In this document: piece after piece, positions 7,734 to 56,401 of the stretch
Layout: the number at the start of each line of letters is the position of its first letter
Position numbering within the stretch: position 1 is the first letter of the stretch
Origin: Guyparkeria sp. SCN-R1
GTDB lineage: Bacteria; Pseudomonadota; Gammaproteobacteria; Halothiobacillales; Halothiobacillaceae
Reading direction: 5' to 3'
Length of the DNA stretch: 64,000 nt
Assembly (NCBI RefSeq): GCF_003932495.1
Contig: NZ_QZMT01000014.1
Location: 1-64,000 of the forward strand
Notes under the pieces: generated by a model
Seen by the model: the letters and a program-made list of their open reading frames with translations, nothing else
The model's database searches: none
Told to the model about the DNA's origin: nothing
Translations under genes and position numbers: made by a program

Positions 7734-7887
7734 CGACCAACTCCTATTCCGGTTCGGAATCATGCGAAAGGTAACAGCCAAGCCCCGGATCAAGGCTAAA
7801 GGGACCAAACGAGAAGGGGCCAGATCGATGAGATAGGGCTTCCCGCATGAAGTTCAAGTTCAATCCCCCCGGCGGGACGGATCCGCC

Positions 7888-8664
7888 TCACGCGGGGCGC
7901 TGCGAATGCACCGTGATCTCGCGTTCATGCAAGGCGGCGACCAGCGCGGTCATGGCCCGCTCGACCTCCGCACGTTCCCCCTTGAAGCCCAGTTCCAGCA
8001 GCCGTCGTTCGGTCGAGAGCACCGGCAGGCTGAACAGCCGCAAGGCCGGGTGGGCCGCACAGAACGCCTCCATCAGGTCGACCAGCTCGCTCTCCGGGGT
8101 GTCGATCAGCCAAAGCGATCGCTCCACGTAGCCCGCATCCCCGAGTCCGGCCAGCGGGCCGGCAAGGATGTTATCGAGCATCGCGTGCGCCATCTCGGGG
8201 AAGCCGGGCAGGAAGAAATGCCGTTCAAGGGCAAAGCCCGGCACGCGGTTGAACGGGTTGGGTACCAGTTCCGCGCCCTCCGGCAGGTCGGCCATCAGGA
8301 TGCGCTTGGGGTGGGCGCCCTCGCCGAACTGCGACTCGATCAGTGCGGCGGCCTCGGGGTGGCGCACCAAAGGTCGCCCGAAGGCCTTGGCGGCACAGGC
8401 CCGAGTGAGATCGTCGGGCGTCGCGCCGATGCCGCCGAAGCAGAACACCGTCGCGCCGTCGGCTCGGCTGCGACGCAGCAGATCGATGATGGTGATCTCG
8501 CGATCAGGCAGGAACTGCGCCCAGTCGACCACCAGCCCGCGGTCCGCAAGGCGCTCGGTGACCGCCGCGAGATGCCGGTCCTGCCGGCGACCGGAAAGTA
8601 TCTCGTCGCCGATCACCACCACGCCGATGCCGGCAAGCGCTCCGTTGCCAAGACCCTCGTTCAT
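7888..8664 (-). CDS. CinA N-terminal-like molybdopterin-binding-domain protein
   Basis: 258 residues, containing only the MoCF-binding-like domain found at the N-terminus of CinA, with no C-terminal nicotinamide-nucleotide amidase domain. Family motifs are 'GDEILSGRRQDRH', 'FCFGGIGATPDDLTR' and 'NPFNRVPGFAL'. Stand-alone proteins of this kind are related to the ADP-ribose pyrophosphatase part of CinA; the activity here is inferred. It follows hemH on the same strand with an 11-bp gap, so co-transcription is likely. Confidence 0.85.
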   Translation of the reverse strand: MNEGLGNGALAGIGVVVIGDEILSGRRQDRHLAAVTERLADRGLVVDWAQFLPDREITIIDLLRRSRADGATVFCFGGIGATPDDLTRACAAKAFGRPLVRHPEAAALIESQFGEGAHPKRILMADLPEGAELVPNPFNRVPGFALERHFFLPGFPEMAHAMLDNILAGPLAGLGDAGYVERSLWLIDTPESELVDLMEAFCAAHPALRLFSLPVLSTERRLLELGFKGERAEVERAMTALVAALHEREITVHSQRPA

Positions 8665-8676
8665 CCCGGACGCGCT

Positions 8677-9789
8677 CTACTGTTTCGCCCCGATCTTCAG
8701 GGCGTTCTCGCGCACCCGGTCGCGCTCGCGCTGGTCCTCGACGGCATCGAACTCGCTGTGCTCGACCCAGCCCTGGGTGTGCTGACGGACCAGACGGGCC
8801 AGCGCATCGAGGTGATCGCCCCGGTCGTTGAGCGCCGGGATGTAGTGGTAGGTCTCGCCGCCAGCCTCCTCGAAGTACTCGCGGTTCTCGTCTCCGATCT
8901 CCTCGATGGTCTCGAGGCAGTCGGCCGAAAAGCCCGGGCAGATCACGGCGATGTGCTTGACGCCCTGGCCGGGCAGGGCCTTCAAGGTCTCGTCGGTGTA
9001 GGGCTTGAGCCACTCCTCGGGGCCGAAGCGTGACTGGAAGGTGACCATGTAGTCGTCCTCGGACAGGCCCAGGCGTTCGGCGACCAGCCGCGAGGTGACG
9101 TAGCAGTGGCAGTGGTACGGGTCGCCGTTGAGCAGGTAGCGCTTGGGCTCGCCGTGGTAGCTCATGATCAGCTTGTCGGGCTTGCCGTGCTCGTCGAAAT
9201 GCTCCTGGATGCTCGCCGCCAGGGCATCGAGGTAGCCCGGGTCACGGTGATACTGGTTGATGGTGCGCAGCTCGGGCACCCAGCGCCAGTGCATGAATTC
9301 GTCGAAGACCGCGTCCAGCGTCGAGGCGGTGGTCGCACCGGCGTACTGCGGGTAGAGCGGCAACACGACCACGCGCCGGCAGCCGGCCTCGCGCAGTTCG
9401 TGCAGGGCCGAGGGCACCGACGGGTTGCCGTAGCGCATGCCGAGTGCCACGGTCACCGGGCCGGCCATCTGCTCGCTCAACCGCTCCTGCAGGCCCTGCT
9501 GCTGCTGCCGCGCGATGGTCAGCAGCGGCGAGCCCTCGCCGTGGTGATCCCAGACCGAGCGGTAGGCCTCGGCGGATTTCGCCGGGCGGGTGCGCAGCAC
9601 GATGCCGTGCAGGATCGGCCACCACTTCCACTTCGGCAGCTCGATCACGCGCGGATCGGAGAGGAACTGCGCGAGGTAACGGCGCAGCGCCGGCGCCTCC
9701 GGCGCGTCCGGCGTACCGAGATTCAGCAGCAGTACTCCCAGTCCTTCCGCACTGCCGTGCTTGTAGTCCGGTTCACCTTGGTAATTCAT
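8677..9789 (-). CDS. hemH: Ferrochelatase
   Basis: 370 residues. The enzyme inserts ferrous iron into protoporphyrin IX, the last step of protoheme synthesis. The N-terminus 'GLGVLLLNLGTPDAPEAPAL' and 'RYLAQFLSDPRVIELP' are classic. The catalytic histidine lies in 'LIMSYHGEPKR' and the conserved glutamate in 'CPGFSADCLETIEEI'. The gene is divergent from trxB across a 216-bp spacer and upstream of the CinA-like gene. Confidence 0.95.
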   Translation of the reverse strand: MNYQGEPDYKHGSAEGLGVLLLNLGTPDAPEAPALRRYLAQFLSDPRVIELPKWKWWPILHGIVLRTRPAKSAEAYRSVWDHHGEGSPLLTIARQQQQGLQERLSEQMAGPVTVALGMRYGNPSVPSALHELREAGCRRVVVLPLYPQYAGATTASTLDAVFDEFMHWRWVPELRTINQYHRDPGYLDALAASIQEHFDEHGKPDKLIMSYHGEPKRYLLNGDPYHCHCYVTSRLVAERLGLSEDDYMVTFQSRFGPEEWLKPYTDETLKALPGQGVKHIAVICPGFSADCLETIEEIGDENREYFEEAGGETYHYIPALNDRGDHLDALARLVRQHTQGWVEHSEFDAVEDQRERDRVRENALKIGAKQ

Positions 9790-9984
9790 TCGATGGCCTC
9801 AACATTTTTCGACGAGTATCCTACAGTCTGGACGTGCTCGGCCGACGCACCAACACGCGTCGCCGAACCCGAGACCGGGTCAATCCCGGGTCATTCTAGG
9901 CAAACCAGTCACACGTTGCCGGACCGGATGATTTCACGCCGATCCGGCGGTCGCCGTCACGCCGGTGACCCTTACACCGAATAA

Positions 9985-10965
<981 letters not shown>

Positions 10966-10989
10966 TCCCGACTGACCATCGCTTCATCC

Positions 10990-11009
10990 GGCCGATCGGA
11001 CGATCGGCC
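10990..11009. other. 20-bp perfect inverted repeat downstream of trxB
   Basis: GGCCGATCG, GA, CGATCGGCC. It has no T tract, so it is not a standard terminator. It could be an operator or a transcript-stabilising hairpin between trxB and the next gene. Confidence 0.35.
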
Positions 11010-11032
11010 ATCACGACTGAAGGAACACCGAC

Positions 11033-11389
11033 ATGGATCCAACCATCGCCGCCTACGTGGTGCTACTGGCACTGGCGCTCGGCCTGACCGGCGCGCTGCG
11101 TGCCGAACGGGAACACTGCGGCCGGGGCCTGTTGATCGTCACCACCCTGGCCGGTTTCCTGGTGGTCGCGGCCGTCAGCGCGCTGCTGACCTCGCAGAGT
11201 GCGCTCGAGCTCGTGCTGTCGACCATCGCCGTGTTCTTCGGCGCGCAGTCGGCGGCGACGGCCTTCCTGCTGCTGCGCCAGGAGATACATGCCGAACCGG
11301 CGGACGAGCCCGACGAGCAGGACCTGCTCGACGAGGAGGACCGCGAACAGCAGTTCGCCCATGAACGTGCCAGCAAGGAGGTGTCGTGA
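11033..11389 (+). CDS. Small membrane protein resembling the PntA membrane segment
   Basis: 118 residues with three predicted membrane helices (about 5-22, 32-52 and 58-80) and an acidic cytoplasmic tail ('DEPDEQDLLDEEDREQQ'). The spacing and the final helix 'LVLSTIAVFFGAQSAATAFL' followed by 'LLRQEI' resemble the C-terminal membrane helices of transhydrogenase subunit PntA. No NAD-binding domain is present. The start has GAAGGA upstream. Its stop overlaps the start of the next gene, implying translational coupling. Homology to PntA is my inference from pattern, at moderate to low certainty. Confidence 0.6.
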   Translation: MDPTIAAYVVLLALALGLTGALRAEREHCGRGLLIVTTLAGFLVVAAVSALLTSQSALELVLSTIAVFFGAQSAATAFLLLRQEIHAEPADEPDEQDLLDEEDREQQFAHERASKEVS

Positions 11390-43531: not shown

Positions 43532-44184
43532 TTACGACATTCCCCCGCTGAACAGCCGATCGAGGTTGCGGTAGCCGATCGCCTCGGCCAGGGCGGCCGA
43601 ATCGATGGCGTCGCGATCCTCGTAGTCGGCGATGCTGCGGGCGAGCTTGAGGATCCGCTCGCGCGCCCGCCCCGAGAGATTCAGTTGCTCGATCGCCCGG
43701 TTGAGCATGTGGCGCTCGGGTTGCGCGAGCACGATGTGTTCGGCCACCCCGGCGGCGTCCAGCCGCGCGTTGACCACCCCCTGCCGTGCCCGCATGCGTT
43801 GACGTGCCGCGATCACCCGCTCGCGCACGGTCTGGCTGTCTTCGCCGTCGGGCTGTGCCTGATCGAGGTCGGTGGCCGGCACGCGCGGGACTTCCAGGTG
43901 GATGTCGATCCGATCGAGCAATGGGCCGGAGACCTTGGCGCGGTAACGCTGGGCGGCGCGCGAGTGGATCTCGCTGCCCTGCGGTGAAGGGTTCATCGCC
44001 GCGATCAGCTGAAAGTCGGCCGGGAAGCGGGCGTGGCGCGCGGCCCGCGAGATCATCACCGAACCGGCCTCGAGTGGTTCGCGCAGGGCCTCGAGCACGC
44101 GGCGATCGAATTCTGGCAGCTCGTCGAGGAACAGCGTGCCGTGGTGGGCGAGCGAGATCTCGCCCGGTGCCGGGTGAGAGCCGC
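43532..44184 (-). pseudogene. comM: comM, 3' part, cut off by the Tn7-like transposon
   Basis: The C-terminal 216 codons of a ComM/YifB Mg-chelatase-like AAA+ protein, from 'SHPAPGEISLAHHGTLFLDE' to the stop. It includes Walker B ('LFLDELPEF') and the C-terminal chelatase-associated domain. The 5' part is at 55093-55953. 861 bp plus 648 bp give one 503-codon frame when the insertion and one GCCGC are removed. ComM is a hexameric helicase that aids branch migration in natural transformation; in this state it should be inactive. A short spurious start exists inside the transposon end. Confidence 0.93.
44180..44184. repeat. 5-bp target-site duplication, left copy
   Basis: GCCGC immediately precedes the TGTCA end of the transposon and is repeated at 55093-55097. 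Five bases is the duplication length of Tn7-like elements. Confidence 0.9.
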
Positions 44185-44318
44185 TGTCATATACTGAAAT
44201 AAGTGCGACAGTGGGGTCGTTGAAACAGGGAGTTAGCATGCATCTTATGGAAATTGCTGCGACAGGATTGTCGAAATTGCTGCGACGAGGTGGCGAATGA
44301 CTCGAAATAGCTGCGACA
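44185..44318 (+). repeat. Transposon left end with four TnsB-site-like repeats
   Basis: Fifteen-base repeats GAAATNNNTGCGACA lie at 44196-44210, 44250-44264, 44273-44287 (last base G) and 44304-44318, all in the same inward orientation. The outermost follows TGTCA plus six bases. The fourth overlaps the first codons of tnsA, so TnsB bound here could repress the operon. The pattern is what is expected of TnsB-binding sites; binding is inferred. Confidence 0.85.
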
Positions 44319-44995
44319 GCATTGAACGCCGCCGCTCGGTACGCACGATTGGCCGTACGCGGAGGAGTGTCTCGGGCACATACATGTTCCGTGGGGAGAC
44401 ACCGATTCCATTCGAGTCCACGCTCGAGCGCGACTTCTTGATCCGCAAAGCGTTCTCGAGAGATGTGCTGGATGTGATTTCACAGCCTGTGGAGATCCCA
44501 TTCGAAACATCGGACGGTCGTCGGTTCACCTACACGCCAGATTTCCTCGTTTACTACCGCCTCGGATCCCGTGACTATCTCGACTACCCAAAGCCCCTTC
44601 TCGTTGAGGTGAAGCCGGAGGAGCAATGGCGCGCAAACTGGCGCAAATGGTTGGCCAAGTGGAAGGCGGCGTATCGCTATGCTCGCGAGCAAGGGTGGTC
44701 CTTCACAATTCAGGATGAGTCCCGGATACGTGACCAGGCACTCACGAATATCCGGTTTCTTGATCGTTTCAAACGCGGTGCCTTTTCAGAAAGGGAGAGT
44801 CGAGCCATTGTCGAGACCCTAGCGACAATGGGCAGTGCACCGTTTCATTACCTGCTGAGCCGCCATTTCATGGGGATCTACGAGGCCGAGGGGATTGCCC
44901 ACATTTGGCATCTGCTCGCCACTCGTCGGCTTGAGTGCGACATCAGCTCGCCGCTCAATCAACAGACGACTTTATGGGTGCCCACTGATGAATGA
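44297..44995 (+). CDS. tnsA: TnsA-like transposon endonuclease
   Basis: 232 residues. In Tn7-like elements TnsA cuts the 5' ends of the transposon so that, with TnsB, the element moves by cut and paste. The nuclease core shows 'FESTLERDFLIR' (glutamate), 'FTYTPDFLVYY' (aspartate) and 'LLVEVKPEE' (ExK), a complete restriction-enzyme-like catalytic set. The N-terminal 'RSVRTIGRTRRSVSGTYMF' is typical. A second domain (about 150-232) should bind TnsC/TnsB. The start lies among TnsB-site repeats, and the gene overlaps tnsB by eight bases. Confidence 0.9.
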   Translation: MTRNSCDSIERRRSVRTIGRTRRSVSGTYMFRGETPIPFESTLERDFLIRKAFSRDVLDVISQPVEIPFETSDGRRFTYTPDFLVYYRLGSRDYLDYPKPLLVEVKPEEQWRANWRKWLAKWKAAYRYAREQGWSFTIQDESRIRDQALTNIRFLDRFKRGAFSERESRAIVETLATMGSAPFHYLLSRHFMGIYEAEGIAHIWHLLATRRLECDISSPLNQQTTLWVPTDE

Positions 44996-46922
44996 AGAAG
45001 GCGATTTCGAGTTGCCGAATGAGTCGCTGGAGCCCGTTCGTCAACGGGTCGATGTGCAAGTTGGCAACTACCTCCGTCAGGGCGAATCGGTCTACCGGAT
45101 CACAGAAGTCCTAGACTTCGACACCGCCATTGGGGTCAACATGGACGACGGCCGAAGCCGCCCACTCCGGATAAAGGAGTTGCGGCCGGTTTCCTCGGCA
45201 GACTCCGATTTCGCTCATGCGCACGATGATCTGGAGGAAATTGCTGACGAGGATTGGCGTACTGCGGAGCAGAGATACGCTGCCATCAGACCTTTGCTGA
45301 GTGCGGTGAATCCGGGGAGGCCGGCTGTTGAAGAGCGCGCCAAGGAAGTTGGCGTCAGCCCGTCGACTATTTATCGCTGGTTAGACCGCTACAAATCGCT
45401 TGGTGTGGTCTCCGCCCTGATTCCAAGGCAACGGGGTTGGAAGGTGGGTAGAAGCCGGATTTCCGGTATGGCCGAAGCGGTGATTCAGGAGGTCATCGAC
45501 GACGTTTATCTAACTCCTCAAAGACCAAACGATCAGGCCGTGGTGATGGAGGTTAAACGGCGCTGTCACAAGCGAGGAATCAATCCTCCCAGCGAGAGCA
45601 CTGTTAGATCAAGGATTGCGAAGGTTCCCGAACGCACGAGGATGCGAAAGCGCGGCTACAGAGAGAAGGCGAGGAATCATTTCCAGCCAACGCCTGGGCG
45701 TTTCCCGAATGCGGATTACCCGCTTGCCTACGTACAGATCGATCACACGCCTGTCGACGTGATCCTGGTGGACGATGAGCATCGGCTCCCCATCGGAAGG
45801 CCTTGGATTAGCGTTGCGATCGACGTGTACAGCCGTACCGTCACCGGCTATTACCTCTCCTTCGATGCGCCCTCGGCAACGTCCGTGGCCATGTGCATCG
45901 CCCACTCGATCCTGCCAAAGGACGATTGGATGACCCTTCATGGCGTCCAAGCGGATTGGCCGGTGTGGGGTCTCCCTGCAACCGTGCATGTCGATAACGG
46001 ACCTGATTTCCGCTCGGATACCTTTCGACGGTCATGCGAAATGTACGGCATCAACTTGGAGTTCCGGCCGGTCAAAGCCCCTCGGTACGGCGGGCACATA
46101 GAACGCCTCCTGGGCACCTTTATGAAGAAGGTCCACTCGGTTCCCGGCACGACGTTCTCTTCGGTGCCTGATCGAGACGGATACGATTCAGAGAAGCATG
46201 CGTCGATGACGAAGACGGAGTTCGAGCGGTGGCTGGTTACGTTGATCACCCGTCACTATCACTATGACCGCCATAGCTCGCTGGGCGTGCCTCCGCTCAA
46301 GCAATGGGAAACAGGGATCTTCGGCAACGCCAAAGACCCGGGGACGGGGATACCCCCTCGCCCGGACAATCCAGCTCGGCTTCTCCTGGATTTCCTTCCA
46401 TCCTTTCGCCGTACCGTTCAGAAATTCGGCGTCACGATCGACGGGATGCTTTATTACGATGAGGCGCTTCGTCCCTGGATCAACGCCAAGGAACCGCACG
46501 ACTCGAAACGCAAGCGCCAACTCATCTTTCGGCGGGACCCACGGGATATCAGCCATGTCTGGTTCTTCGATCCCGATTTGAAGCACTACTTCAAGATTCC
46601 CTTCGCGGACCTTTCCTTGCCCGCCATGAGTATCTGGGAGCTTAACCAGGCCAAGGACAAGCTGAAGAGGGAAGGTCAACAAGCGTTCAGTGAGCATTTG
46701 ATTCTCGAGGCGCTTACTGACCTGCGGGATCAGGTCGAGGCGTCAAAGGCTGCAACCAAGAAGGCTCGCCGTCAGGCCCAGCGACGCAAGGAGCATGAGC
46801 GCCGGGTTACGCCCGCTGACCCCGTTAAGCGCAAAGCGGACGCACCCAAGGATTTTGGTGACAAATTGGATGACTCTTTGCTGGACGATATCGAAATCGG
46901 CGGGTTGGGAGACATTTCATGA
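44988..46922 (+). CDS. tnsB: TnsB-like DDE transposase
   Basis: 644 residues from ATG 44988; an in-frame ATG further upstream lies inside tnsA and is unlikely. The order is N-terminal helix-turn-helix DNA-binding domains ('AKEVGVSPSTIYRWLDRYKS'), then the retroviral-integrase fold with catalytic Asp in 'YVQIDHTPVDVILVD', Asp in 'VHVDNGPDFRS' and Glu in 'YGGHIERLLGTFMKKV', then a Mu-type C-terminal beta domain and a basic tail that should contact TnsC. It joins the 3' ends to the target. It is coupled to tnsA before it and tnsC after it (four-base overlap). Confidence 0.95.
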   Translation: MNEEGDFELPNESLEPVRQRVDVQVGNYLRQGESVYRITEVLDFDTAIGVNMDDGRSRPLRIKELRPVSSADSDFAHAHDDLEEIADEDWRTAEQRYAAIRPLLSAVNPGRPAVEERAKEVGVSPSTIYRWLDRYKSLGVVSALIPRQRGWKVGRSRISGMAEAVIQEVIDDVYLTPQRPNDQAVVMEVKRRCHKRGINPPSESTVRSRIAKVPERTRMRKRGYREKARNHFQPTPGRFPNADYPLAYVQIDHTPVDVILVDDEHRLPIGRPWISVAIDVYSRTVTGYYLSFDAPSATSVAMCIAHSILPKDDWMTLHGVQADWPVWGLPATVHVDNGPDFRSDTFRRSCEMYGINLEFRPVKAPRYGGHIERLLGTFMKKVHSVPGTTFSSVPDRDGYDSEKHASMTKTEFERWLVTLITRHYHYDRHSSLGVPPLKQWETGIFGNAKDPGTGIPPRPDNPARLLLDFLPSFRRTVQKFGVTIDGMLYYDEALRPWINAKEPHDSKRKRQLIFRRDPRDISHVWFFDPDLKHYFKIPFADLSLPAMSIWELNQAKDKLKREGQQAFSEHLILEALTDLRDQVEASKAATKKARRQAQRRKEHERRVTPADPVKRKADAPKDFGDKLDDSLLDDIEIGGLGDIS

Positions 46923-47815
46923 CCAAGGAACCTTATTCCCATATCCACCCTGAATTTCGGCACATCATGGGGTTGTCTGACGAAGAGCGTCTGGAGTTCT
47001 TGGACCAGCCGCGGTGGATCGGTTACGAAGCCGCCCATCGCATTTTGGATACGCTTCAGGGCCTGATGCACAAACCGAAGCGCCCCCGAATGCCGAACCT
47101 GCTTATCGTGGGTGACTCGAATCAGGGGAAGACGACGCTCCTCCAGCGTTTCTACGACTTGTGCGGCGAGGGTTACGTCAACGAGGACGCCGAACCAGTC
47201 AAGCCCGTGATCTTGGCTGAGGCGCCAAGCAGTGCCGACGAGAAAGCTCTCTACTGTTCCATCCTGGAACGGTTTCATGCTCCGTATCGGTCGACCGACC
47301 CCAAGACGAAGCTTCGCTACCAGATCATCCACCTGTTTCGGGAGTGCCACGTTCAGATTCTGGGCATCGACGAGTTCCATTCTCTGCTGACAGGGTCAGC
47401 CATCAAACAACGGGAGGTGATGAACGCCATCAAGTTGCTCTGCAATGAGTTGGCCATCCCTATCGTGGGAGTCGGAACGCGTGATGCGGTGCGTGTACTT
47501 CACACTGACCCACAACACGCCAGCCGATTCGACGTAATCGAGCTTCCACGGTGGGAGCTCAACAAGTCTTTTCAGCGCTTGTTGGTGGATTTCGAATCGG
47601 TACTGCCTCTGAAAAACCCCTCCCGTTTACATCAGCCCGAACTCGCCAAGCTGGTTTTCGCCATATCGGAGGGAAACTTGGGCAATCTTCACCGGCTTCT
47701 TGCCAAATGCGCGATGGATGCGGTCCGAAGCGGCAAGGAACAGATCGACAAGGAGATCATCGAGGGGAACAAATGGCTTCGACCCACACGTGGCATCCGG
47801 GAAGTGATGCTCTAG
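46919..47815 (+). CDS. tnsC: TnsC-like AAA+ regulator
   Basis: 298 residues, TniB/TnsC type, shorter than Tn7 TnsC (555). Walker A is 'VGDSNQGKTTLLQRFY' and Walker B 'ILGIDEFHSLL', followed by sensor-type 'IPIVGVGTRDAVRVLHTDPQ'. It forms ATP-dependent filaments on DNA that connect the target selector to the TnsA-TnsB transposase and give target immunity. It overlaps tnsB by four bases and tniQ by 43 bases. The short form matches systems where TniQ recruits it directly. Confidence 0.92.
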   Translation: MTKEPYSHIHPEFRHIMGLSDEERLEFLDQPRWIGYEAAHRILDTLQGLMHKPKRPRMPNLLIVGDSNQGKTTLLQRFYDLCGEGYVNEDAEPVKPVILAEAPSSADEKALYCSILERFHAPYRSTDPKTKLRYQIIHLFRECHVQILGIDEFHSLLTGSAIKQREVMNAIKLLCNELAIPIVGVGTRDAVRVLHTDPQHASRFDVIELPRWELNKSFQRLLVDFESVLPLKNPSRLHQPELAKLVFAISEGNLGNLHRLLAKCAMDAVRSGKEQIDKEIIEGNKWLRPTRGIREVML

Positions 47816-48903
47816 AACCAGGATGGCCGGTTCCGACGGATCTCCTCCCGGACGAAATCCTGTCCTCATGGCTCGTTCGCAGTGCATTACGGCAAGGATG
47901 TGATCCACTAGCGCTGACTTGCGATCTCTGGCCGGGGTGGCGTCCTTGGACGGTGGACGTTGATCGCATGCTTCCGCCCGAGCGACTGAATGGCCTTTCC
48001 CGGCGTGCCGGCATGGATACAAAAGCAATCCAATCCGCCACGCTCCTTCCGGTCACTACTCAAATTCGTGATCACAAACCTCCAGGCCGCTCAATTTGGC
48101 CGTGGATGCTCGCTCTCGGCGCTCGGAATACCAAACGACGAAGCGGTCTTCAGTATTGTCCCGAGTGCCTAGCCGAAGGCAAAGCACCGTATTTCAGAAT
48201 CCAGTGGCGATTCGCGTGGCATACATGCTGCACAATGCATGGTTGCTCGCTGCATGACCGTTGTTGGCAATGTCATGCCTCCATCGAACCCCACCGGCTC
48301 GACGCCGACGCACCGCACCTAGCGCGTTGTGCAAGTTGCGACGAGAACTTGTGCGCTGCTCCTAGAATGAATTGCTCGGGTAACGCCCTCGCCTTTCAAT
48401 CGGCCGCTGACAATGTCCTCTTGGGTGTTCAATCTTCGCTGTTCGGACACGCCCAAACGGTAAGTGCGTGGTTTGAGGTTGTCGATTTCTTCATTTCTTT
48501 GGTTCGCCGCAGCGGCCGGAGCCGAACAAAGGCCCAGCTCGCTTTATTTGACCTGATGGGACTCGAGGCCCCTTCAGGGGCGCCGGCTTTTCCAGGCGCG
48601 AGTATTGAATATCTGTCTGTCGCGGATCGGCAGGAAATACTAGGACTCGCATGGGGGTTTCTTGGGGCGGAAGAAGCTGACGTGCTCGCCGCGGTTCTCG
48701 ACTCGGGGATCTCTCAACAAGGCCTTGCGGACAAGAGACAGCGAATACCGCCTCTCCTCGAAGGGCTGATCTCGCTAGCCCCCGATGCCGCCAAGGCTAC
48801 CCCTCGCCTAAAACGGCGAGCTCGAACAGGACTAAGACCTCGTCATGAGGTCGAACGGATGATGGCCAGACTGGTCCGCAAACTGGATATGAAGCGGCGA
48901 TGA
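47773..48903 (+). CDS. tniQ: TniQ/TnsD-type target-site selector
   Basis: 376 residues from ATG 47773, inside the end of tnsC. A longer frame from 47551 is only the shadow of tnsC. The TniQ N-terminus is seen in 'LLPDEILSSWLVRSALRQG', and the zinc site in 'LQYCPECLAEG', 'WHTCCTMHGCSLHDRCWQCH' and 'CASCDENLC'. The C-terminal 150 residues are helical and would read the attachment site. By analogy with TnsD, it should recognise comM DNA and recruit TnsC; the exact site is inferred from where the element sits. Confidence 0.9.
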   Translation: MASTHTWHPGSDALEPGWPVPTDLLPDEILSSWLVRSALRQGCDPLALTCDLWPGWRPWTVDVDRMLPPERLNGLSRRAGMDTKAIQSATLLPVTTQIRDHKPPGRSIWPWMLALGARNTKRRSGLQYCPECLAEGKAPYFRIQWRFAWHTCCTMHGCSLHDRCWQCHASIEPHRLDADAPHLARCASCDENLCAAPRMNCSGNALAFQSAADNVLLGVQSSLFGHAQTVSAWFEVVDFFISLVRRSGRSRTKAQLALFDLMGLEAPSGAPAFPGASIEYLSVADRQEILGLAWGFLGAEEADVLAAVLDSGISQQGLADKRQRIPPLLEGLISLAPDAAKATPRLKRRARTGLRPRHEVERMMARLVRKLDMKRR

Positions 48904-50336
48904 GCGCTCAACCGGGCCGAATTCGGCAGACCGAGTGCGATGAGTGCGGGAATGGCGATCTCTGTATCCATCGGGTCGACAAAGGCCACCGGTACTGCGG
49001 CACTTGCTACAAGCGAGTATTCGTTCGGAAACCTTGTTCAAGCTGCGGGCAGGAGGCCCGACTGCCGAAGACGAATCCAAGGGCCATCTGCCGGAACTGC
49101 GAGAAGAACAAACCGTGTGTCCGGTGTGGCAGAACAGGCTTTCGGTTGGGAAAGGTCACGGAGTTCGGGCCGGTCTGCAATGCCTGCTCCGTGTATTTCC
49201 GCTCCGCGGAGCCCTGCGAGGTCTGCGGAACCCTGTCAAAGAGACTCACACGTGTGTCACGTTTACCCCACTACGGGCGGGTCTGTCCAAAGTGCGCAAG
49301 AACAGCGCATGGGACTTGTAACGCTTGTCGACGTCATCGAAAACTCGATATTGCCCCCGATGGGCAACAACTTTGCCGCAAGTGTCTGGAGCATGGCGAA
49401 GTCAGGTGTCCTGAGTGCAGTGAATCCATGCCTGCGGGCTACGGGTGTCGTTGCGAAATCTGCTACTGGCGTGGCTTGTACAAGAAGCGGACCGAGATCA
49501 ACGCCAAGTTATTCCGAACATGCGAACTGTCAGATCGATTTCGGGAGTTCGCCGCCTGGCTAGTAGCGAGACAGGGGCCTAAGCGGGCTGTGCGCACGAT
49601 TCAGCGATACGTCGACTTTTTTAAAGGCATGGATGGCCAGTGGGGTGGGATTCCGAACCATAACGAATTGGTACGGCAACTCGGTCCCGAGGGCCTCAGG
49701 CGATACCGACTTGTTACCCAGTGGTTGAGCGAAGTCGCCCATATCGTCGTGGACCAGGTGGTTGGCAGGGAAGAATCCGAGCGGCGTCAGATCGAAACTC
49801 TCATCCAGAGGTTGCCGAAAGATTCCGGCTGCCGGGCTTTGGGAGAAAGTTACCTGGAATATCTAACCGACCGCCGGAGTCACAGAGCCACCTCGTTGCG
49901 TTCCGTCCGGTGTGCTCTGGGTCCGGCTCTTGCTCTTCTCGTTGCGTCACGCGGGAATCCGACTCAAGCGGGTCTCGAAAAATTTCTGCGTGACAAGCCG
50001 GGACAACGTGCTGCATTGGCCGGTTTTGTGAATTATCTAAGAAGAGAATTGGGCCTCAACCTGAGTCTGCCGCTAGGGCCAGGTACCCTTGGAAAGCGAG
50101 CGAAGCTAGAGAAGCGAATGCTAGCGTTGCTTGCTAACGAAGACCGATCAAACGAAATCCAAGCCCAATGGGTGCTACTTGGGCTTGAGTATTTTCATCG
50201 TGTCAGCGTCGCCAGGGCAGGTGGGCGTGATGGTCTTGCCATTGGGCTATGTGAAGACGGTAGTCAAAATGTGAGCCTGAGAGGTGTTGACTACTGGATC
50301 CCCGCTCTTCCAACGCCCCCGGTAGACACACGGTGA
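48900..50336 (+). CDS. Multi-zinc-ribbon protein with an integrase-like helical region, last gene of the tns operon
   Basis: 478 residues, coupled to tniQ by an ATGA overlap. The first 200 residues hold about eleven CxxC pairs (such as 'CSSCG', 'CRNCEKNKPCVRCG' and 'CPECSESMPAGYGCRCEICY'), so several zinc ribbons. The rest is helical. 'LVARQGPKRAVRTIQRYVDF' and 'YLEYLTDRRSHRATSLRSVR' resemble the core-binding domain of tyrosine recombinases, but no catalytic R-H-R-Y set follows. Its position equals tniE of Tn6022/AbaR islands as I remember them. A DNA- or target-binding accessory role is inferred; function is unknown. Confidence 0.75.
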   Translation: MSAQPGRIRQTECDECGNGDLCIHRVDKGHRYCGTCYKRVFVRKPCSSCGQEARLPKTNPRAICRNCEKNKPCVRCGRTGFRLGKVTEFGPVCNACSVYFRSAEPCEVCGTLSKRLTRVSRLPHYGRVCPKCARTAHGTCNACRRHRKLDIAPDGQQLCRKCLEHGEVRCPECSESMPAGYGCRCEICYWRGLYKKRTEINAKLFRTCELSDRFREFAAWLVARQGPKRAVRTIQRYVDFFKGMDGQWGGIPNHNELVRQLGPEGLRRYRLVTQWLSEVAHIVVDQVVGREESERRQIETLIQRLPKDSGCRALGESYLEYLTDRRSHRATSLRSVRCALGPALALLVASRGNPTQAGLEKFLRDKPGQRAALAGFVNYLRRELGLNLSLPLGPGTLGKRAKLEKRMLALLANEDRSNEIQAQWVLLGLEYFHRVSVARAGGRDGLAIGLCEDGSQNVSLRGVDYWIPALPTPPVDTR

Positions 50337-50692
50337 GAACTCACCCTGCTCAGCAGACCGCTGAGTACCATGACCGGCAGTACCTCGGCGACCGTAGCAG
50401 GAAGCGGCAATGATGAGGTGATCTCACGAGGTAATCACAAAATTCCACCTCGGATGCTCTTCCGAATCCCCGAACCGCGTAGCGCCAACGGCCTCGCAGC
50501 GTGGTTTTGGCGTAGTCCGATCATATGAAGAAGACCAGTATGGCCTGTATTCGTACTGGCACTAGCAAGTTGCGAGATCGAAGCGCTCACGCTTCCTGAT
50601 TCCTCTACACATGCAGCCAGAGCACTCCAAGGGTCTCCGCGCTACGAGATTCCGTGTCGACGCGATTTGTTGATCACTATGGCCCAATGCCA
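50337..50692. other. 356-bp stretch without a recognisable gene inside the transposon
   Basis: It lies between the zinc-ribbon gene and the IS3-family element. No open frame with protein-like composition and no TnsB-site repeat was seen. It could be what is left of cargo removed by a deletion next to the IS. Confidence 0.5.
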
Positions 50693-50755
50693 TGAATCGC
50701 CCCGACTTTCCTAGACACCTCAAGAGCCTCACAATGAGGGTTCCGAGGAGGTGCC

Positions 50756-51034
50756 ATGAGCAGTCGACGTTATCCAGACGAATTCAAGGTTGAGGCGGTC
50801 AAGCAGGTGACAGAGCGAGGCCGCCGAGTGAAGGAGGTGGCCGAGCATCTTGGCGTCTCCCAGCACAGCCTTTACGCGTGGATCCGGCGTTATCAGCAGC
50901 CGGATGAAGAAAAGCAGAAGCAGCAGGCTCAAGCCGATGAGATCCGCCGCCTGAATGCGCAACTCCGGGAAGTCACCGAGGAGCGCGACATATTAAAAAA
51001 GGCGGCCGCGTACTTCGCCAAGCAGTCCGGGTGA
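50756..51034 (+). CDS. IS3-family transposase OrfA
   Basis: 92 residues. The helix-turn-helix 'VKEVAEHLGVSQHSLYAWIR' is followed by a leucine-zipper region ('RRLNAQLREVTEERDILKKA'), which is standard OrfA. The heptamer A-AAA-AAG at 50995-51001 is in the correct frame for -1 slippage, which would fuse OrfA to OrfB and make the active OrfAB transposase. Confidence 0.95.
   Translation: MSSRRYPDEFKVEAVKQVTERGRRVKEVAEHLGVSQHSLYAWIRRYQQPDEEKQKQQAQADEIRRLNAQLREVTEERDILKKAAAYFAKQSG
50995..51001 (+). promoter_or_regulatory. Programmed -1 ribosomal frameshift site
   Basis: AAAAAAG is aligned to the OrfA frame as A AAA AAG, the standard slippery heptamer of IS3-family elements, about 30 bases before the OrfA stop. 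Confidence 0.8.
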
Positions 51035-51906
51035 GGTACGCGTTCATCAAGGACCACGAACGCGCCCATCCGGTGCGCCGCCTTTGCCGCTTGATGAATG
51101 TCCACCCGAGTGGCTACTACGCCTGGAAGCGTCAGCCGGACTCCCGGCGACAGCGGGAAGATCGACGGCTGCTGGGCGTGATCAAGCAATCCTGGCTGGA
51201 GAGCGGTGGCGTCTACGGCTATCGCAAGATCCATCACGATCTGCGGGATCTGGGCGAGCGTTGCGGCAAGCACCGTGTGGCCCGCCTGATGCGTGGAGAG
51301 GGATTGAAGTCACAGACCGGCTACCGGCGTCGCCCCGGCTTTCGTGGTGGACGCCCGGCCGTCGTGGCGCCGAATCACTTGCAGCAGCAATTTGACGTGT
51401 CCGCTCCCAACCAGGCCTGGGTCACGGACATTACCTACATCCGGACTCACGAGGGATGGCTGTACCTGTCGGTGGTTCTGGATCTGTTCTCCCGGCAAGT
51501 CGTCGGCTGGTCCATGCGTCCACGCATGGATCGGGAGCTGGCCATGAATGCCTTGATGATGGCCGTGTGGCGACGCCAGCCTGACGGCCCGGTCGTCGTC
51601 CATTCCGATCAGGGAAGCCAGTTCAGCAGCCACGACTGGCAGGACTTTCTCAAGGCCCACGGCCTCGTGGGCAGCATGAGCCGGAGGGGGAACTGCCACG
51701 ACAACGCCGTGGCGGAGAGCTTCTTCCAGTTGCTCAAACGTGAGCGAATCCGCCGTCGGATCTATCCGGACCGGGAAGAAGCCCGCCGAGACGTGTTCGA
51801 TTACATCGAGCTCTTCTACAACGTCCGCCGCCGTCATGGCTACATCGGCGGGCTCTCTCCGGTAGAGTTCGAGAAGCGCTATTTCAACCGGCTCGCGAGT
51901 GTCTAG
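51031..51906 (+). CDS. IS3-family transposase OrfB (DDE integrase domain)
   Basis: 291 residues from GTG 51031, in the -1 frame relative to OrfA. The catalytic set is intact: Asp in 'WVTDITYIRT', Asp in 'VVHSDQGSQFSS' and Glu in 'CHDNAVAESFFQLLKRE'. 'GVYGYRKIHHDL' is the HTH_21-type region before it. It is probably made mainly as an OrfAB fusion by frameshifting. No damage is seen, so the IS may still be active. Confidence 0.95.
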   Translation: MRYAFIKDHERAHPVRRLCRLMNVHPSGYYAWKRQPDSRRQREDRRLLGVIKQSWLESGGVYGYRKIHHDLRDLGERCGKHRVARLMRGEGLKSQTGYRRRPGFRGGRPAVVAPNHLQQQFDVSAPNQAWVTDITYIRTHEGWLYLSVVLDLFSRQVVGWSMRPRMDRELAMNALMMAVWRRQPDGPVVVHSDQGSQFSSHDWQDFLKAHGLVGSMSRRGNCHDNAVAESFFQLLKRERIRRRIYPDREEARRDVFDYIELFYNVRRRHGYIGGLSPVEFEKRYFNRLASV

Positions 51907-52032
51907 AAAACCGGGGGCGATTCAGGATGTTTTTACGAATGCACGTCCAAATTTCCTCGTTGAGGAGCATATCTGGGTAGGGAGGCCTACATAAGACGGC
52001 CCCCGCTATCCCACACCAAAGGAGGCTTATAT

Positions 52033-52305
52033 ATGCCAATCGAACGACGAATTGTTCAGACCGGAAAAGATCGCGACGGGGACATCACCGCCCTTTGCAA
52101 CTCTGGTGAGCACTGGTCCCCACGTTCCAAGTCTAAAGCCATTCAGGACATCGAGAGTGGTATCTACCAGTACTACGTTCTTCTCAAGAACGGTGAGCGT
52201 GCCATTGTTGGCGTCGTGAACGGTTCCTCAGGCAAGTACCTCAGGACCAATTGGGATGGAACAAAACGAAACAATCTTGATGATCTTCCGGACTGCACGA
52301 GCTAA
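52033..52305 (+). CDS. DUF3892-family small protein
   Basis: 90 residues. 'DGDITALCNSGEHWSPRSKS', 'IESGIYQYYVLLKNG', 'GKYLRTNWDGTKRNNLDDLP' match the DUF3892 pattern. AGGAGG precedes the ATG. It is 15 bases before a DUF2188 gene; such small domains are common accessory genes on mobile elements, but no function is established. Transposon cargo. Confidence 0.8.
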   Translation: MPIERRIVQTGKDRDGDITALCNSGEHWSPRSKSKAIQDIESGIYQYYVLLKNGERAIVGVVNGSSGKYLRTNWDGTKRNNLDDLPDCTS

Positions 52306-52320
52306 GACGTAGGGGGCGAA

Positions 52321-52557
52321 ATGAGTAACAAGCGAGATATTCACGTAGTACCCCATAAGGAGGGGTGGGCGACTCGGCGTGAAGGGAGTTCCCGGGCATT
52401 GGGGATCCATCGGACGCAGACCGATGCGATCGATTCAGGGAGGAGTCAGGCTCGGAAGGATCGCGTGGAGCTCGTGACGCACCGCAAAGATGGTCGCATC
52501 CGTGACTCAGACAGTTACGGGAACGACCCGCATCCACCTAAGGATAGAAAGCATTGA
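52321..52557 (+). CDS. DUF2188-family small protein
   Basis: 78 residues. 'HVVPHKEGWATRREGSSRAL', a central 'TQTDAIDSGRSQARKDRVEL' and the end 'SDSYGNDPHPPKD' are the DUF2188 signature, in which the C-terminal SYGxDPxPPK is nearly invariant. It forms a two-gene unit with the DUF3892 gene. Function is unknown. Its 3' end faces the TacA-like gene on the other strand. Confidence 0.82.
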   Translation: MSNKRDIHVVPHKEGWATRREGSSRALGIHRTQTDAIDSGRSQARKDRVELVTHRKDGRIRDSDSYGNDPHPPKDRKH

Positions 52558-52590
52558 AACGCAGTACCTGATGACGGCGGGCAGCCTCAG

Positions 52591-53007
52591 CTAAGGTTGT
52601 TCATGTCCCTGAGCCCGGCGTTGACCCCGGGCCTTTATTTTTTGGTGCCGCCTCTTTGCCTCTAGGTATTTTGGAGATGGCGGACGGGGATTGTCGATTA
52701 GATCGACGATGAGTTCAGCCTCTCGCTCGGTGAGCACGATGGTGGTTCTGTCTCGCAGGGAGGCGATTCCGGCACTCAAGGCTCGGCTCGCAACTTCGCT
52801 TGTCGGGACTTTTGCCGCTGCGGCGAGCTCATCTAGGGCGGCGAGATGATCTGCGGACACGGGAATTAGTGGCGTTGCGTGGTCTTTTTGGGGGTGTTGA
52901 CTTAACCGTTCGCGTCGCTGGACATGGTTCGCGAAGGCGAAGAGCCCCGTAATGAAGGCGATAAGCCAGCCAGCCCCAGCGAGAAATGCGATCCATGTTT
53001 CGTTCAT
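52591..53007 (-). CDS. Membrane-anchored TacA-like (DUF1778) antitoxin homologue without toxin
   Basis: 138 residues. One N-terminal membrane helix ('WIAFLAGAGWLIAFITGLFA') is joined by a short linker to a region resembling TacA/DUF1778 antitoxins: 'DHLAALDELAAAAKVPTSEV' as the ribbon-helix-helix-like part, then 'TTIVLTEREAELIVDLIDNP' and 'RPPSPKYLEA', the shape of the toxin-neutralising tail. Normally a GNAT toxin gene (tacT) follows directly; here none is present. It is downstream of the TnsE-like gene on the same strand (139-bp gap). The membrane anchor is unusual. The assignment is by pattern, at moderate certainty. Confidence 0.55.
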   Translation of the reverse strand: MNETWIAFLAGAGWLIAFITGLFAFANHVQRRERLSQHPQKDHATPLIPVSADHLAALDELAAAAKVPTSEVASRALSAGIASLRDRTTIVLTEREAELIVDLIDNPRPPSPKYLEAKRRHQKIKARGQRRAQGHEQP

Positions 53008-53146
53008 GTGTTCTCACCGTTGTGATTGCTTGCCAAGTGGATTGCCGTAGCAGCGAGGTTAGACGAACTGCTTGGATCAAGAAGCTTCAGGGGTTGGGCG
53101 GGAGGCCTTGGCGCCGCATTGATCTCGCTGGTCAGGTTCCGTGGGA

Positions 53147-54973
53147 TTACAACTTCACTCCCATCTTCCTGAGGGCGTTCCGAGCTGCCGCTTCACATGG
53201 CACGGTGTCATTTTTCGATTTGCTATGGGCGAACGTATCTGCATCTCCTGGGCATGAGCCAACCAACCCTTTAAACACCCCTTCGGAGTAACGAATTCTC
53301 GAAAGGAGGATCCGTAGCCACTCTTCTAGGTCTGTTTCACTGTCAAGATGGAAGCAAAGCCCACTCATTGACTCTTCACTAAATTCCCCTGAGCCATCAG
53401 CTTTGGGGCGTGTCCTGCGTTGAATCTCCACGACATAGAGGTCTTGCTCATCGACCTGAATTCGCATAACGAGAGCCCCACGGGGCTGGGTAGCCTCTTT
53501 GTCTAGGAAAGGCCATTTACGCGTGCTGCCAGAAACCTTTGCACTTTGGCTAAACGGCGCGATCTGAATGAGCTTTGGGTGCCCGATTCGTTGGAATCCG
53601 CCTTCAAACGCAAACCAGGCAACGCTTTGGATCCGCTCCGGGAAAGCGTGTTGGAGATGTTGGGCCGCCTCCCACATGTCTCTCAATTTGCCCTGCGACT
53701 CCATTTCTACTGGTGCGTGAAACAAAGCCAAGCCGACTCCTTTACCTTCTCCGTGGGGAGCTCCGCTGGAGAAGATTTCTGCATCAGTCGCTTGATCGCC
53801 AGCAGCAATCGGTGACCCAGCATGCTCTCGTTTAATCCTTTGTGAGACCACTTGCTGCCGATTCCCGGACGGCGGTAGCAGTTCCTCGAACTCCGGATCA
53901 TCAATTGAGGCGCGTGGTCCGGAATGATCCGGCTCATCATCTTTTGTCAGAGGCAAGTCCATCTCACCCTTTAGCGAGGTTCGGTATGGCTGCCGTCCAA
54001 GGCCTTCCTCGGTAGGCGGACCCATTTCGTCGATCGTCGGGTATTCTCGTGTGCCCCGGGAAAGGATAATTGGCGGACCCTCTGGCTCGCTGCAGCCAAT
54101 GACTTCCAGGGCGAGGAAGGATCTACCGTTATCGAAGGGGATGCCTCGAACCCTTAGTTTGGCGGGCTGCCTGAACCATGGTCCAATTTTTGGGTGTGCT
54201 AGTCGTGATCCGTGCCCTTGCCGTGGACTGGCCGAGTGCGCCTGCTCGAGTTGCGAATAAATGCCCTTGAGGCATTTTGTTGTGGGAGGGAGATATTTAG
54301 CGGAGGCGAGGATCTTTGCATCCCCCGTCGCAAGCCTCCCGTTGTCTCTCAAGGCGACCTGCCACTTACCGCTTATTTCCTGCTGGTTAAGGGGGGCGTA
54401 AAGATGGCTGTGCGGGTCATCGAAGCCCCGCCATGGATAAGTAGCTAAAACGCGTTTCAGCTCTTGCGACCGGCCATAGCATCGGGAAAAAAACTCCAAT
54501 GACGGGATTACCAGCTTTCCGCCCGTTCCGAGATTTAGCTCGATCAAGGGATTTTTGTCCCGACCGTACTTTAAGGGGTGGAGTGACCGCGGGTACGGGG
54601 GTTCTGTGCCTGCCTGGGCGGCTTGTGCAAATGAGTTGAAGGACCAGCCTCCTTCGCGGAAGTCAACTGAGAACTCTTTCGTCTGAAAGGTGATCCGCTC
54701 TCGGCACCGATTGTTGGCCCAGATTGTCCCGATCCTCATTTGTCCCAATGCAGTTAGTGGGACGTCTCGGAGTTCGTAATCGCCGAAGGAGCGGCCGTCG
54801 GGGCTCAGTTGACGGAAGACAACAACAACCAGGGGTTGGCTGCTCGCTCGATAGTTTTTCTTCAGTCCGCCATACCACCAGGCCACCCAGCGCTGCCCGT
54901 CGTTCAGTCCCAGCGAGTCCAAAGGCATCGCAGGGGCAATCCTCTGGGTTCGGATCTTGTGGGTGTTGCTCAT
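53147..54973 (-). CDS. tnsE: TnsE-like transposon targeting protein
   Basis: 608 residues, against 538 for Tn7 TnsE. Resemblance is in order and pattern: an N-terminal beta-rich half with 'LVIPSLEFFSRCYGRSQELK' (Tn7: HIPQLELARSLFLINSYF), 'LRVRGIPFDNGRSFLALEVI' (Tn7: LHVKGRSSNEDKDYLVEEIV), a charged linker (about 330-400), then a C-terminal domain with 'MWEAAQHLQHAFPERIQSVA' and 'LVMRIQVDEQDLYVVEIQRR' (Tn7: FVLLEVDASDG). In Tn7, TnsE directs insertion into replicating plasmids. Here it lies alone at the right end, reading inward, opposite to tnsABC. Identification is from remembered sequence; an HMM search would settle it. Confidence 0.6.
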   Translation of the reverse strand: MSNTHKIRTQRIAPAMPLDSLGLNDGQRWVAWWYGGLKKNYRASSQPLVVVVFRQLSPDGRSFGDYELRDVPLTALGQMRIGTIWANNRCRERITFQTKEFSVDFREGGWSFNSFAQAAQAGTEPPYPRSLHPLKYGRDKNPLIELNLGTGGKLVIPSLEFFSRCYGRSQELKRVLATYPWRGFDDPHSHLYAPLNQQEISGKWQVALRDNGRLATGDAKILASAKYLPPTTKCLKGIYSQLEQAHSASPRQGHGSRLAHPKIGPWFRQPAKLRVRGIPFDNGRSFLALEVIGCSEPEGPPIILSRGTREYPTIDEMGPPTEEGLGRQPYRTSLKGEMDLPLTKDDEPDHSGPRASIDDPEFEELLPPSGNRQQVVSQRIKREHAGSPIAAGDQATDAEIFSSGAPHGEGKGVGLALFHAPVEMESQGKLRDMWEAAQHLQHAFPERIQSVAWFAFEGGFQRIGHPKLIQIAPFSQSAKVSGSTRKWPFLDKEATQPRGALVMRIQVDEQDLYVVEIQRRTRPKADGSGEFSEESMSGLCFHLDSETDLEEWLRILLSRIRYSEGVFKGLVGSCPGDADTFAHSKSKNDTVPCEAAARNALRKMGVKL

Positions 54974-55046
54974 CCTGTGGCCGTCCAGTAAGCCAAACTG
55001 GTGTTTTGGGCGGAATTAAGTAGACAAGGTAGTAACTCCTGAATTT

Positions 55047-55092
55047 TGTCGCAGCTATTTCCAAAATGTCGCAGCAATTTCGACAACTGACA
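55047..55092 (-). repeat. Transposon right end with two TnsB-site-like repeats
   Basis: Read inward on the minus strand: TGTCA, six bases, GAAATTGCTGCGACA (55067-55081), then after five bases GAAATAGCTGCGACA (55047-55061). These match the left-end repeats, in the inward orientation. The sites lie about 75-120 bases upstream of the TnsE-like gene and so could also affect its promoter. Confidence 0.85.
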
Positions 55093-55097
55093 GCCGC
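55093..55097. repeat. 5-bp target-site duplication, right copy
   Basis: GCCGC immediately follows the ACA end of the transposon and is identical to 44180-44184. Confidence 0.9.
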
Positions 55098-55953
55098 CAC
55101 CGATCAGCGCGACGGCCGAGGCCGAGTGGTGCGGGGCGCGAAACGGGCGCTCGCCGAAGCGGGAGGGGTCGAATCCACCGGGCGTGACCGTGGCCACCTC
55201 GGCCGCGGCTAGGGCCTCTTCCTCGGTCATCGGCGGCAGGATGCCGGCGAGTCGCTGGGCCAGCATGCTCTTGCCGGCACCCGGTGGACCGATCAGCAGC
55301 AGATTGTGTTTTCCAGCCGCGGCGATCGCCAGCGCGCGCTTGGCCCGCGGTTGGCCGCGGACGTCGGCGAGATCGCCATTGATGGCCGGGTCGACCGGCG
55401 GGGGTGGACGGTGTTCCAGTCGCACGGGATCGGCCTCGCCCGCCAGGTAGGCCACCAGATCGCGCAGATGATGTAGCCCTCGGCCGGCAACCCCCGGGAT
55501 GAGCTCCGCCTCCGCCTGGCCGTCGGCTGGCAGGAGCAATTCCCGCCCGGCATCGCGCGCCGCCCGGGCGGCGGACAGATTGCCGCGCACCGAGCGCAAG
55601 CTGCCATCCAGGGACAGCTCACCCAGGCATTCGATATGTGCCAATCGTTCACGGGCGGGCGCCGGTAGCTGACCGGTGGCGGCGAGGATGGCCAGGGCGA
55701 TGGCGAGATCGAAGCGCGCGCTTTCCTTGGGCAGGTCGGCCGGGGCGAGATTGACGGTCAGCCGACGTGGCGGGAACTCGAAGCCCGAGGAAAGGATCGC
55801 CGCACGGACCCGGTCGCGGGATTCGCGCACGGCGGTCTCGGGTAGCCCGACCAGGGTGAATGCCGGCAGTCCCGGGGCGACATGGGCCTCGACGGTGACC
55901 GCGGGGGCGTGAATGCCGAGCAGGGCCCGGCTGTGAATCTTGGCGATGGGCAT
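55093..55953 (-). pseudogene. comM: comM, 5' part, cut off by the Tn7-like transposon
   Basis: The N-terminal 287 codons, from ATG 55953 ('MPIAKIHSRALLGIHAPAV'). It holds the Lon-like N-terminal domain ('GLPAFTLVGLPETAVRESRD') and the AAA+ Walker A 'LLIGPPGAGKSMLAQRLAG', and stops at 'HHSASAVALIGGG', where the transposon enters. Walker B and the rest are at 43532. The reading frame runs about 40 codons into the transposon end before a stop, so a truncated protein could be made. Confidence 0.93.
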
Positions 55954-56119
55954 GTCCGTATGCCTCGTGTCGTGGGTAGGTCGGCCGGCGGGCCTTGCGG
56001 AAAACGCGGCGCCGGCGAGGGGATTGTCGGTCTGAGGCCGCTGCTGGCCGGGCATCCATGCCCGCCGGCAACGGCTTGTTCAACGAACCGGCGCGGAAAC
56101 CGGTTCGCCGGGCCCGGGT

Positions 56120-56401
56120 TCAGCTGGCCATGTCGCCTTCTTCATTCTCGGGCTGGCCGCGGTGGTGTTTTTCCATCTCGGCGACGCGCTGCTCCAACGC
56201 CTCGAGCTTGGCGCGGGTGCGGGCGAGCACCTGGGTCTGCACGTCGAATTCCTCGCGCGTGACCAGATCCATACGGGAAAAGCCGTTGCTGACGGCCTGG
56301 CGAACCGCCTTGTCGAACTCCTGCTTGCCCTCGCGCAGGCTCTCGGGCATGGCCTGCTCGATGCGCTGGGAGATCTCTTCGATCGTGTGGGTGATGGACA
56401 T
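56120..56401 (-). CDS. ubiK: Ubiquinone biosynthesis accessory factor UbiK
   Basis: 93 residues from ATG 56401. This is the YqiC/BMFP family: an amphipathic N-terminal helix ('TIEEISQRIEQAMPESLREG') and a C-terminal coiled coil ('LARTRAKLEALEQRVAEMEK'). UbiK forms a complex with UbiJ and aids aerobic ubiquinone synthesis. The family is commonly encoded next to comM, as here before the transposon came in. Confidence 0.92.
   Translation of the reverse strand: MSITHTIEEISQRIEQAMPESLREGKQEFDKAVRQAVSNGFSRMDLVTREEFDVQTQVLARTRAKLEALEQRVAEMEKHHRGQPENEEGDMAS

Follow-up and report, generated by a model that had tools for sequence, protein, structure and literature searches.

A probable Tn6022-family Tn7-like transposon in the comM attachment site of a Guyparkeria genome

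The comM gene (minus strand) in the window, i.e., the whole stretch of 64,000 nucleotides from Guyparkeria sp. SCN-R1 that was analysed, is split at 44185-55092 by a 10,908-bp element. We are confident that this element is a Tn6022-family Tn7-like transposon which was inserted, probably recently, in the comM attachment site of its halothiobacillacean host. It is a known kind of comM-targeting transposon, already described in Acinetobacter, and is here represented by a further Tn6022-family element. Tn6022-type transposition into comM, best known from Acinetobacter resistance islands, extends to a genus of Halothiobacillaceae in which occupied and open comM alleles are found side by side, and this offers a non-clinical setting for asking whether the element profits from the loss of comM or whether this loss simply follows from the choice of a conserved landing site.

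The insertion and the two pieces of the gene are arranged as follows.
43532-44179, minus strand: comM 3' part, 648 bp including the stop, 215 codons plus stop, starting SHPAPGE; Walker B half of the ATPase domain and Mg_chelatase_C
44180-44184, unstranded: left copy of the 5-bp target duplication GCCGC, flanking the element
44185-55092, unstranded: the complete element (10,908 bp), each end of which reads TGTCA inward
55093-55097, unstranded: right copy of the 5-bp target duplication GCCGC, end of the comM 5' part
55093-55953, minus strand: comM 5' part of 287 codons (861 bp) with VALIGGG at its end; contains the ChlI domain and the half of the ATPase domain that bears Walker A

The sequence-only reading had described two in-frame comM parts of 861 and 648 bp that would give a 502-residue ComM once the element and one GCCGC were removed. 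Both lengths are indeed multiples of three and both frames are open; the last five bases of the 5' part are one copy of the duplication, and with one GCCGC copy counted 861 and 648 bp amount by arithmetic to 1,509 bp, or 502 residues and a stop. Seven congeners read IGGG-S through the site. Pfam matches in the 5' part comprise ChlI and positions 1-94 of the 207-position Mg_chelatase profile, and those in the 3' part comprise positions 96-205 of the same profile and Mg_chelatase_C. Because the profile is divided in this way, the insertion lies inside the ATPase domain and leaves Walker A and Walker B on different pieces, the LFLDE of Walker B beginning at base 46 of the 3' part (the naming of the two motifs is our own reading). 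A split at this place should abolish the helicase activity of ComM.

The sequence-only reading had named a second intact copy elsewhere in the genome as evidence against a disabled comM, and we searched the host assembly (2,418,072 bases in 68 contigs, 99.99% complete) for one, using both the ChlI family and the comM 5' part; none was found. The ChlI family gave three matches, namely the comM 5' part with 143.6 bits and two weak ones with 33.3 and 30.5 bits, in frames of 462 and 829 aa which we take to be probably RadA and Lon, and the 287-aa 5' part gave one further match (41 residues, E 3.3e-4). With neither a complete ATPase domain nor a second copy found, the claim is well supported by the anatomy of the locus.

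The element itself contains the following features.
44196-44324, unstranded: left end with four repeats of 21 bp (GAAATNGCTGCGACA type), putative TnsB sites
44297-44995, plus strand: tnsA, 232 aa; Pfam Tn7_TnsA-like_N 8.2e-19, Tn7_Tnp_TnsA_C 6.7e-8
44988-46922, plus strand: tnsB, DDE transposase of 644 aa with its ATG at 44988 (ORF scanned from 44985); PADLOC TnsB 4.4e-41, Pfam Mu-transpos_C and rve
46919-47815, plus strand: tnsC / tniB ATPase, 298 aa; Pfam TniB 5.1e-71
47773-48903, plus strand: tniQ; Pfam TniQ 4.9e-24; start uncertain, nearest in-frame ATG at 47773, scanned from 47809
48900-50336, plus strand: tnsF homologue, 478 aa; Cys-rich residues 1-199, then a part resembling a tyrosine-recombinase core-binding fold
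50693-51924, plus strand: IS3-family insertion sequence; orfA 50756-51034, orfB 51031-51906, terminal inverted repeats 16/20
52033-52305, plus strand: short DUF3892 protein of 90 aa; the congener G007 has a stretch of 74% identity close to its own tnsE-like gene
52591-53007, minus strand: 138-aa protein; weak TacA1-antitoxin match, under the Pfam cut-off
53147-54973, minus strand: putative tnsE, 608 aa, at the end opposite tnsA and in the same direction as comM, with homologues at the same place elsewhere
55047-55086, unstranded: right end with two inverted 20-bp copies of the left-end motif, putative TnsB sites

Hallmarks of a Tn7-like transposon are present, namely TnsA, TnsB, TnsC, and a TniQ-domain protein in a row, the 5-bp target duplication, and the end repeats, which we infer to be TnsB sites. 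If up to three mismatches are allowed, the 15-base core of these repeats has 15 occurrences in the window (6.25 expected); with at most one mismatch there are five, all at the element ends. The GC content of the element (0.54-0.62 in 1-kb values) differs from that of the two kilobases on either side (0.64-0.69). No resistance or defence gene was recognised among the element ORFs scanned with Pfam, NCBIfam, and PADLOC.

The same set of proteins (TnsA, TnsB, TnsC, TniQ, and TnsF), an opposite-strand TnsE-like gene at the other end, and an insertion in the comM ATPase domain that leaves a target duplication and the gene in two pieces characterise both Tn6022 of Acinetobacter johnsonii, as described in PMC10293859, and the AbaR/Tn6022 islands of Acinetobacter baumannii. 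The location near Walker B matches Tn6022 by description. The window proteins TnsA to TnsF are 33-53% identical to those of an A. baumannii copy and the TnsE-like protein about 23%. Unlike the Tn6022/AbaR elements, that of the window is 10.9 kb long with an IS3-type insertion and two small genes, and its host is not an Acinetobacter. Further counterparts, with 43-80% identity from TnsA to TnsF and with the same codon and orientation, are the elements of Marinobacter vinifirmus FB1 (20,627 bp, so that its cargo differs from that of the window) and of a Gallionella metagenome-assembled genome, the latter known from its TnsA side only. Tn7, which is also treated in PMC10293859, shares the TnsA/TnsB transposase, the TnsC regulator, a TniQ-domain protein, and several end repeats, whereas it spares glmS and the window element splits comM. 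We also considered Tsy, a tyrosine-recombinase transposon which likewise combines TnsF with comM but, according to PMC10293859, lacks TnsA/B/C, inserts by another mode, and carries a tyrosine recombinase and an HTH gene beside TnsF. The window element is not a Tsy, as it has the Tn7 genes and no Phage_integrase match among its ORFs scanned.

Six other elements were detected after the same comM codon, in Marinobacter vinifirmus, Halomonas sp. PA16-9, the Gallionella genome, and the genomes G007 (a congener of the host), G014, and G147. Two of them are seen from both sides (Marinobacter, and G147 with 20,599 bp), two from the comM 5' side only (G007 and Halomonas, where no comM 3' part lies in the 3.4 kb beyond TnsA), and two from the 3' side only (Gallionella and G014), so that seven elements in seven genomes share the codon and three, counting that of the window, show both junctions. 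Where the 5' side is seen, comM breaks off behind the third glycine codon of (I/V)GGG, and where the 3' side is seen, it resumes at one and the same codon. The orientation is constant, with TnsA towards the comM 3' part in all five cases seen and the TnsE-like gene beside the 5' part, on the comM strand, in all four where it was found. The five bases at the site are GCGGC in three of the seven open congeners and different in the other four, and the G007 copy follows GCGGT. Since these bases vary, the spot is set by its position and not by the bases that are duplicated.

An untargeted insertion that chanced on comM could be argued from a related element whose TnsE end lies on a plasmid of Methylobacter sp. 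YRD-M1 with no comM found beside it, but the recurrence of one codon in seven genomes speaks so strongly against chance that we give this explanation next to no credence. On that plasmid the TnsE end adjoins a gene annotated as a PDDEXK nuclease, a location in line with a second, plasmid-directed route.

With targeted insertion as the preferred reading, homology to the published system suggests how the site would be found. TnsF is reported to bind comM around the Walker B codons, to recognise a 10-bp region there, and to be needed for insertion at that place, which the authors compare with Tn7 aiming at the glmS catalytic site (PMC10293859). By analogy, the window's TnsF homologue would bind the conserved Walker B stretch of comM, TniQ would bridge TnsF to TnsC, and TnsA/TnsB would insert the element at a fixed distance upstream of that stretch, after the third (I/V)GGG glycine codon, in a fixed orientation with the TnsA end towards the comM 3' part. 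ComM would then be split between Walker A and Walker B and its helicase activity lost.

The TnsF homologue was identified by gene place and sequence family, the product of 48900-50336 having no Pfam, NCBIfam, or PADLOC match at E <= 0.01. Its gene overlaps tniQ at 48900-48903, and in each of three loci that were inspected (Methylobacter, Halomonas sp. PA16-9, and A. baumannii) a homologue adjoins tniQ; the A. baumannii homologue (36.6% identity, E 8.8e-95) also comes after TnsA-B-C-TniQ in the order of the window. In a plasmid collection, 70 records contain homologues (51 from Acinetobacter, 52 with at least 80% coverage), with 35-43% identity among the matches listed. The TnsF originally named is a protein of 498 aa encoded beside a short TniQ; it combines zinc fingers at the N-terminus with a degenerate tyrosine recombinase, the fold including recombinase-like core-binding and partial catalytic domains (PMC10293859). 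The window protein has 26 Cys in residues 1-199, and PDB searches returned only weak zinc-finger-type matches (best E 0.03). Its structure model is poor (pLDDT 66.3, pTM 0.34); Foldseek on this weak model returned nothing at E <= 0.001, and the top four rows of VIA-align are tyrosine recombinases with middling scores (Z 5.4-7.4, residues 303-397), followed by cyclins at Z 5.0, which is in keeping with a degenerate tyrosine recombinase without being proof of one. In the sample of the class, homologues of TnsF are uncommon: 4 of 369 genomes have one, counting the window, and the other three are partial. In the order they were found in 2 of 27 genomes, again counting the window, and a search of genome contigs with the TnsF alignment gave four loci.

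In the G147 element (L024:4771-6795, L042:11112-11630), the end of the TniQ protein matches only the first zinc-finger stretch of TnsF (38% identity across 94 aa), and at the other end of the element a TniQ-like gene stands in place of the TnsE-like gene; one TniQ fusion with the zinc-finger part of TnsF is mentioned in PMC10293859. Only about 90 residues of the TnsF zinc region were found in this element, yet it occupies the same comM codon. A full TnsF is thus not needed in every element, which suggests either that the site can be chosen without the recombinase part or that the choice is made by the second TniQ.

We also surveyed the class with the comM 5' part, which matches 320 of 369 genomes at 1e-30; reading frames are known only among the best matches listed, so that these counts give no interruption rate. 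Among those listed, eight genomes besides the window have a comM frame of at most 400 aa and none is cut at the window's codon; G147, with its cut at that codon, ranked below these matches. Four of these frames lie at contig edges (G101, G212, G136, and G028), two depart from comM at a point further along (G354, close to the end of its contig, and G328), and the last two (G165 and G204) are interrupted by other DNA at Walker B or just behind it. In G165 the cut falls after about position 1461 of locus L056, just after Walker B (LFLDELPEF). In G204 it falls within Walker B near 11766 of locus L057, where three large tandem ORFs occupy 5644-11231, the first with a Phage_integrase match and the other two without a Pfam family; this is possibly a tyrosine-recombinase trio or a Tsy-like element.

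Within the genus, comM stays open across the site in seven of the ten congeners, with frames of 506-695 aa; G007 has an element of its own there, and comM was not found in the remaining two, G003 and G006, which are 64% and 79% complete. All 16 genomes from other genera of the family have a comM frame of at least 491 aa. The window flanks are contiguous in congener DNA; in locus L006, the aligned stretches ending at 44184 and starting at 55088 of the window overlap by ten bases. The comM 5' part of G007 shows +2 and +1 changes relative to the window and to locus L008, as expected either of a decaying pseudogene or of an assembly fault.

To estimate the age of the insertion, changes in comM were assigned to branches using L006 as the compared relative (the closest in the 5' part, not one chosen from a tree) and three other congeners for polarisation, with 10 and 16 ambiguous sites left out. 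On the window branch we counted 33 synonymous against 2 nonsynonymous changes for the 5' part and 12 against 3 for the 3' part; the counts for L006 were 35 against 4 and 27 against 7, respectively. With L007 as the compared relative, the window branch had 36/1 in the 5' part and 13/2 in the 3' part, and with L008 it had 28/2 and 12/2. Considering that both comM halves look constrained for most of the window branch, the insertion is probably recent on the scale of this branch. L007 was kept as an outgroup despite a frame shift after a G run near the end of its comM, which adds noise to the 3' count. In this single-contig congener (G009), the shift alters the last part of the protein and reflects either a slippage mutation or a sequencing error.

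Since the host has the uptake genes comEC (840-aa frame), dprA (395), and pilQ (470) and a comEA-type gene above its cut-off, it is plausible that any natural transformation of which it is capable would be lowered by the insertion, mainly for DNA differing from the chromosome, and not abolished. Work on Acinetobacter points the same way. In two A. baumannii strains, transformation rose about 1,000- and 300-fold when AbaR was cured from comM, and a comM deletion matched the island-bearing parents (PMC7508600). PMC11472951 reports that comM loss reduces transformation without abolishing it and that comM is inactivated in 22% of A. baumannii strains surveyed, more commonly in non-transformable ones.

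The sequence-only reading had also proposed that precise excision would repair the gene. Its arithmetic is right, but being exactly restorable is a generic property, true of any insertion with a target duplication, and the mechanism is doubtful. Excision of a Tn7-like element with TnsA means that both strands are cut at each end. As the window element has TnsA, no clean seam is expected at the cut donor, and comM would be repaired mostly through recombination with intact comM DNA. For the related A. johnsonii element, 60.9% simple insertions and 39.1% cointegrates are reported (PMC10293859). The one observation that might favour regular restoration by clean excision comes from G014, in which one contig (C86, SDAY01000029.1) has the element and a comM 3' fragment and another (C69, ending shortly before the gene end) has comM open through the site, the two being identical at 126 of 126 bases. 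These filled and open copies reflect either a strain mixture or excision; G014 is a metagenome assembly, in which a mixture of filled and empty strains explains both alleles. Together with the prediction from TnsA, this makes regular clean excision improbable in our judgement, and recombination with intact comM DNA is preferred.

Why these elements split comM may be answered in two ways. It had been suggested from the window alone that the element gains by blocking its own removal through transformation, that is, a host without comM would be less able to delete the element with empty-site DNA. This idea is already in print: diminished removal of mobile elements through comM loss is proposed in PMC11472951, and a related proposal, that transformation of other elements is limited, in PMC10293859. 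It would fit the repeated choice of comM by the seven elements, the interruption of A. baumannii comM by AbaR and by other elements, more commonly in non-transformable strains (PMC11472951), and the two class members, G165 and G204, cut by other DNA at or just after Walker B. On the other hand, seven of the ten congeners keep comM open, recombination that salvages comM is reported to be no more frequent than chance (PMC11472951), and comM may be no more than a conserved and dispensable place to land, recognised by its Walker B DNA. We regard a benefit of this kind as possible but less likely than not. The other answer, to which we assign about an even chance, is that comM is chosen only for its conserved Walker B DNA and the low cost of its loss, the transformation defect being a by-product. 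It is favoured by the use of one codon in distant genera while the five bases vary among congeners, and by the published recognition of the 10-bp Walker B region, likened to that of glmS by Tn7. Yet Tn7-like elements appear to use safe sites at which the attachment site is left intact (PMC8649781), and the splitting of a target gene is unusual and calls for explanation.

In position and strand, the TnsE-like protein agrees with the divergent TnsE described for Tn6022; it is 65% and 42% identical to the proteins at the same place in G007 and Marinobacter. The Marinobacter protein matches Acinetobacter proteins with about 25% identity (E about 1e-35) and, as a query, 31 records of the plasmid collection, 25 of them from Acinetobacter. 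No match of the window protein to TnsE of Tn7 was obtained by Pfam, by a PDB-profile search of the alignment, or by structure (model pLDDT 33.1).

The truncated comM frame reads 40 codons into the right end of the element, and its TGA overlaps the ATG of the tnsE-like gene (ATGA, 54970-54973). The same overlap occurs in G007 with a spacer 12 bp longer. Considering this arrangement, the fixed orientation in comM might place the plasmid-targeting tnsE under comM transcription and, in the window, also under comM translation; we hold this to be quite unlikely. If true, it would tie the escape of the element to incoming plasmids to comM expression and hence to competence. Translational coupling is possible in the window and not general: as a trait of the family it was rejected, because the ATGA overlap is absent in Marinobacter and the Halomonas comM frame stops 66 bases past the junction. 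A consensus scan of 54900-56200 gave no sigma-70-like promoter, missing comM's own as well, and a single terminator-like site on the opposite strand, a number not above chance. No paper among those listed by literature searches states such a coupling in its title or abstract opening. In the class-wide search with the TnsE-like alignment, 2 of 369 genomes had matches, namely the window and G296, a single-contig genome with two C-terminal TnsE-like fragments at C1:1770521-1770856, perhaps the remnant of such an element.
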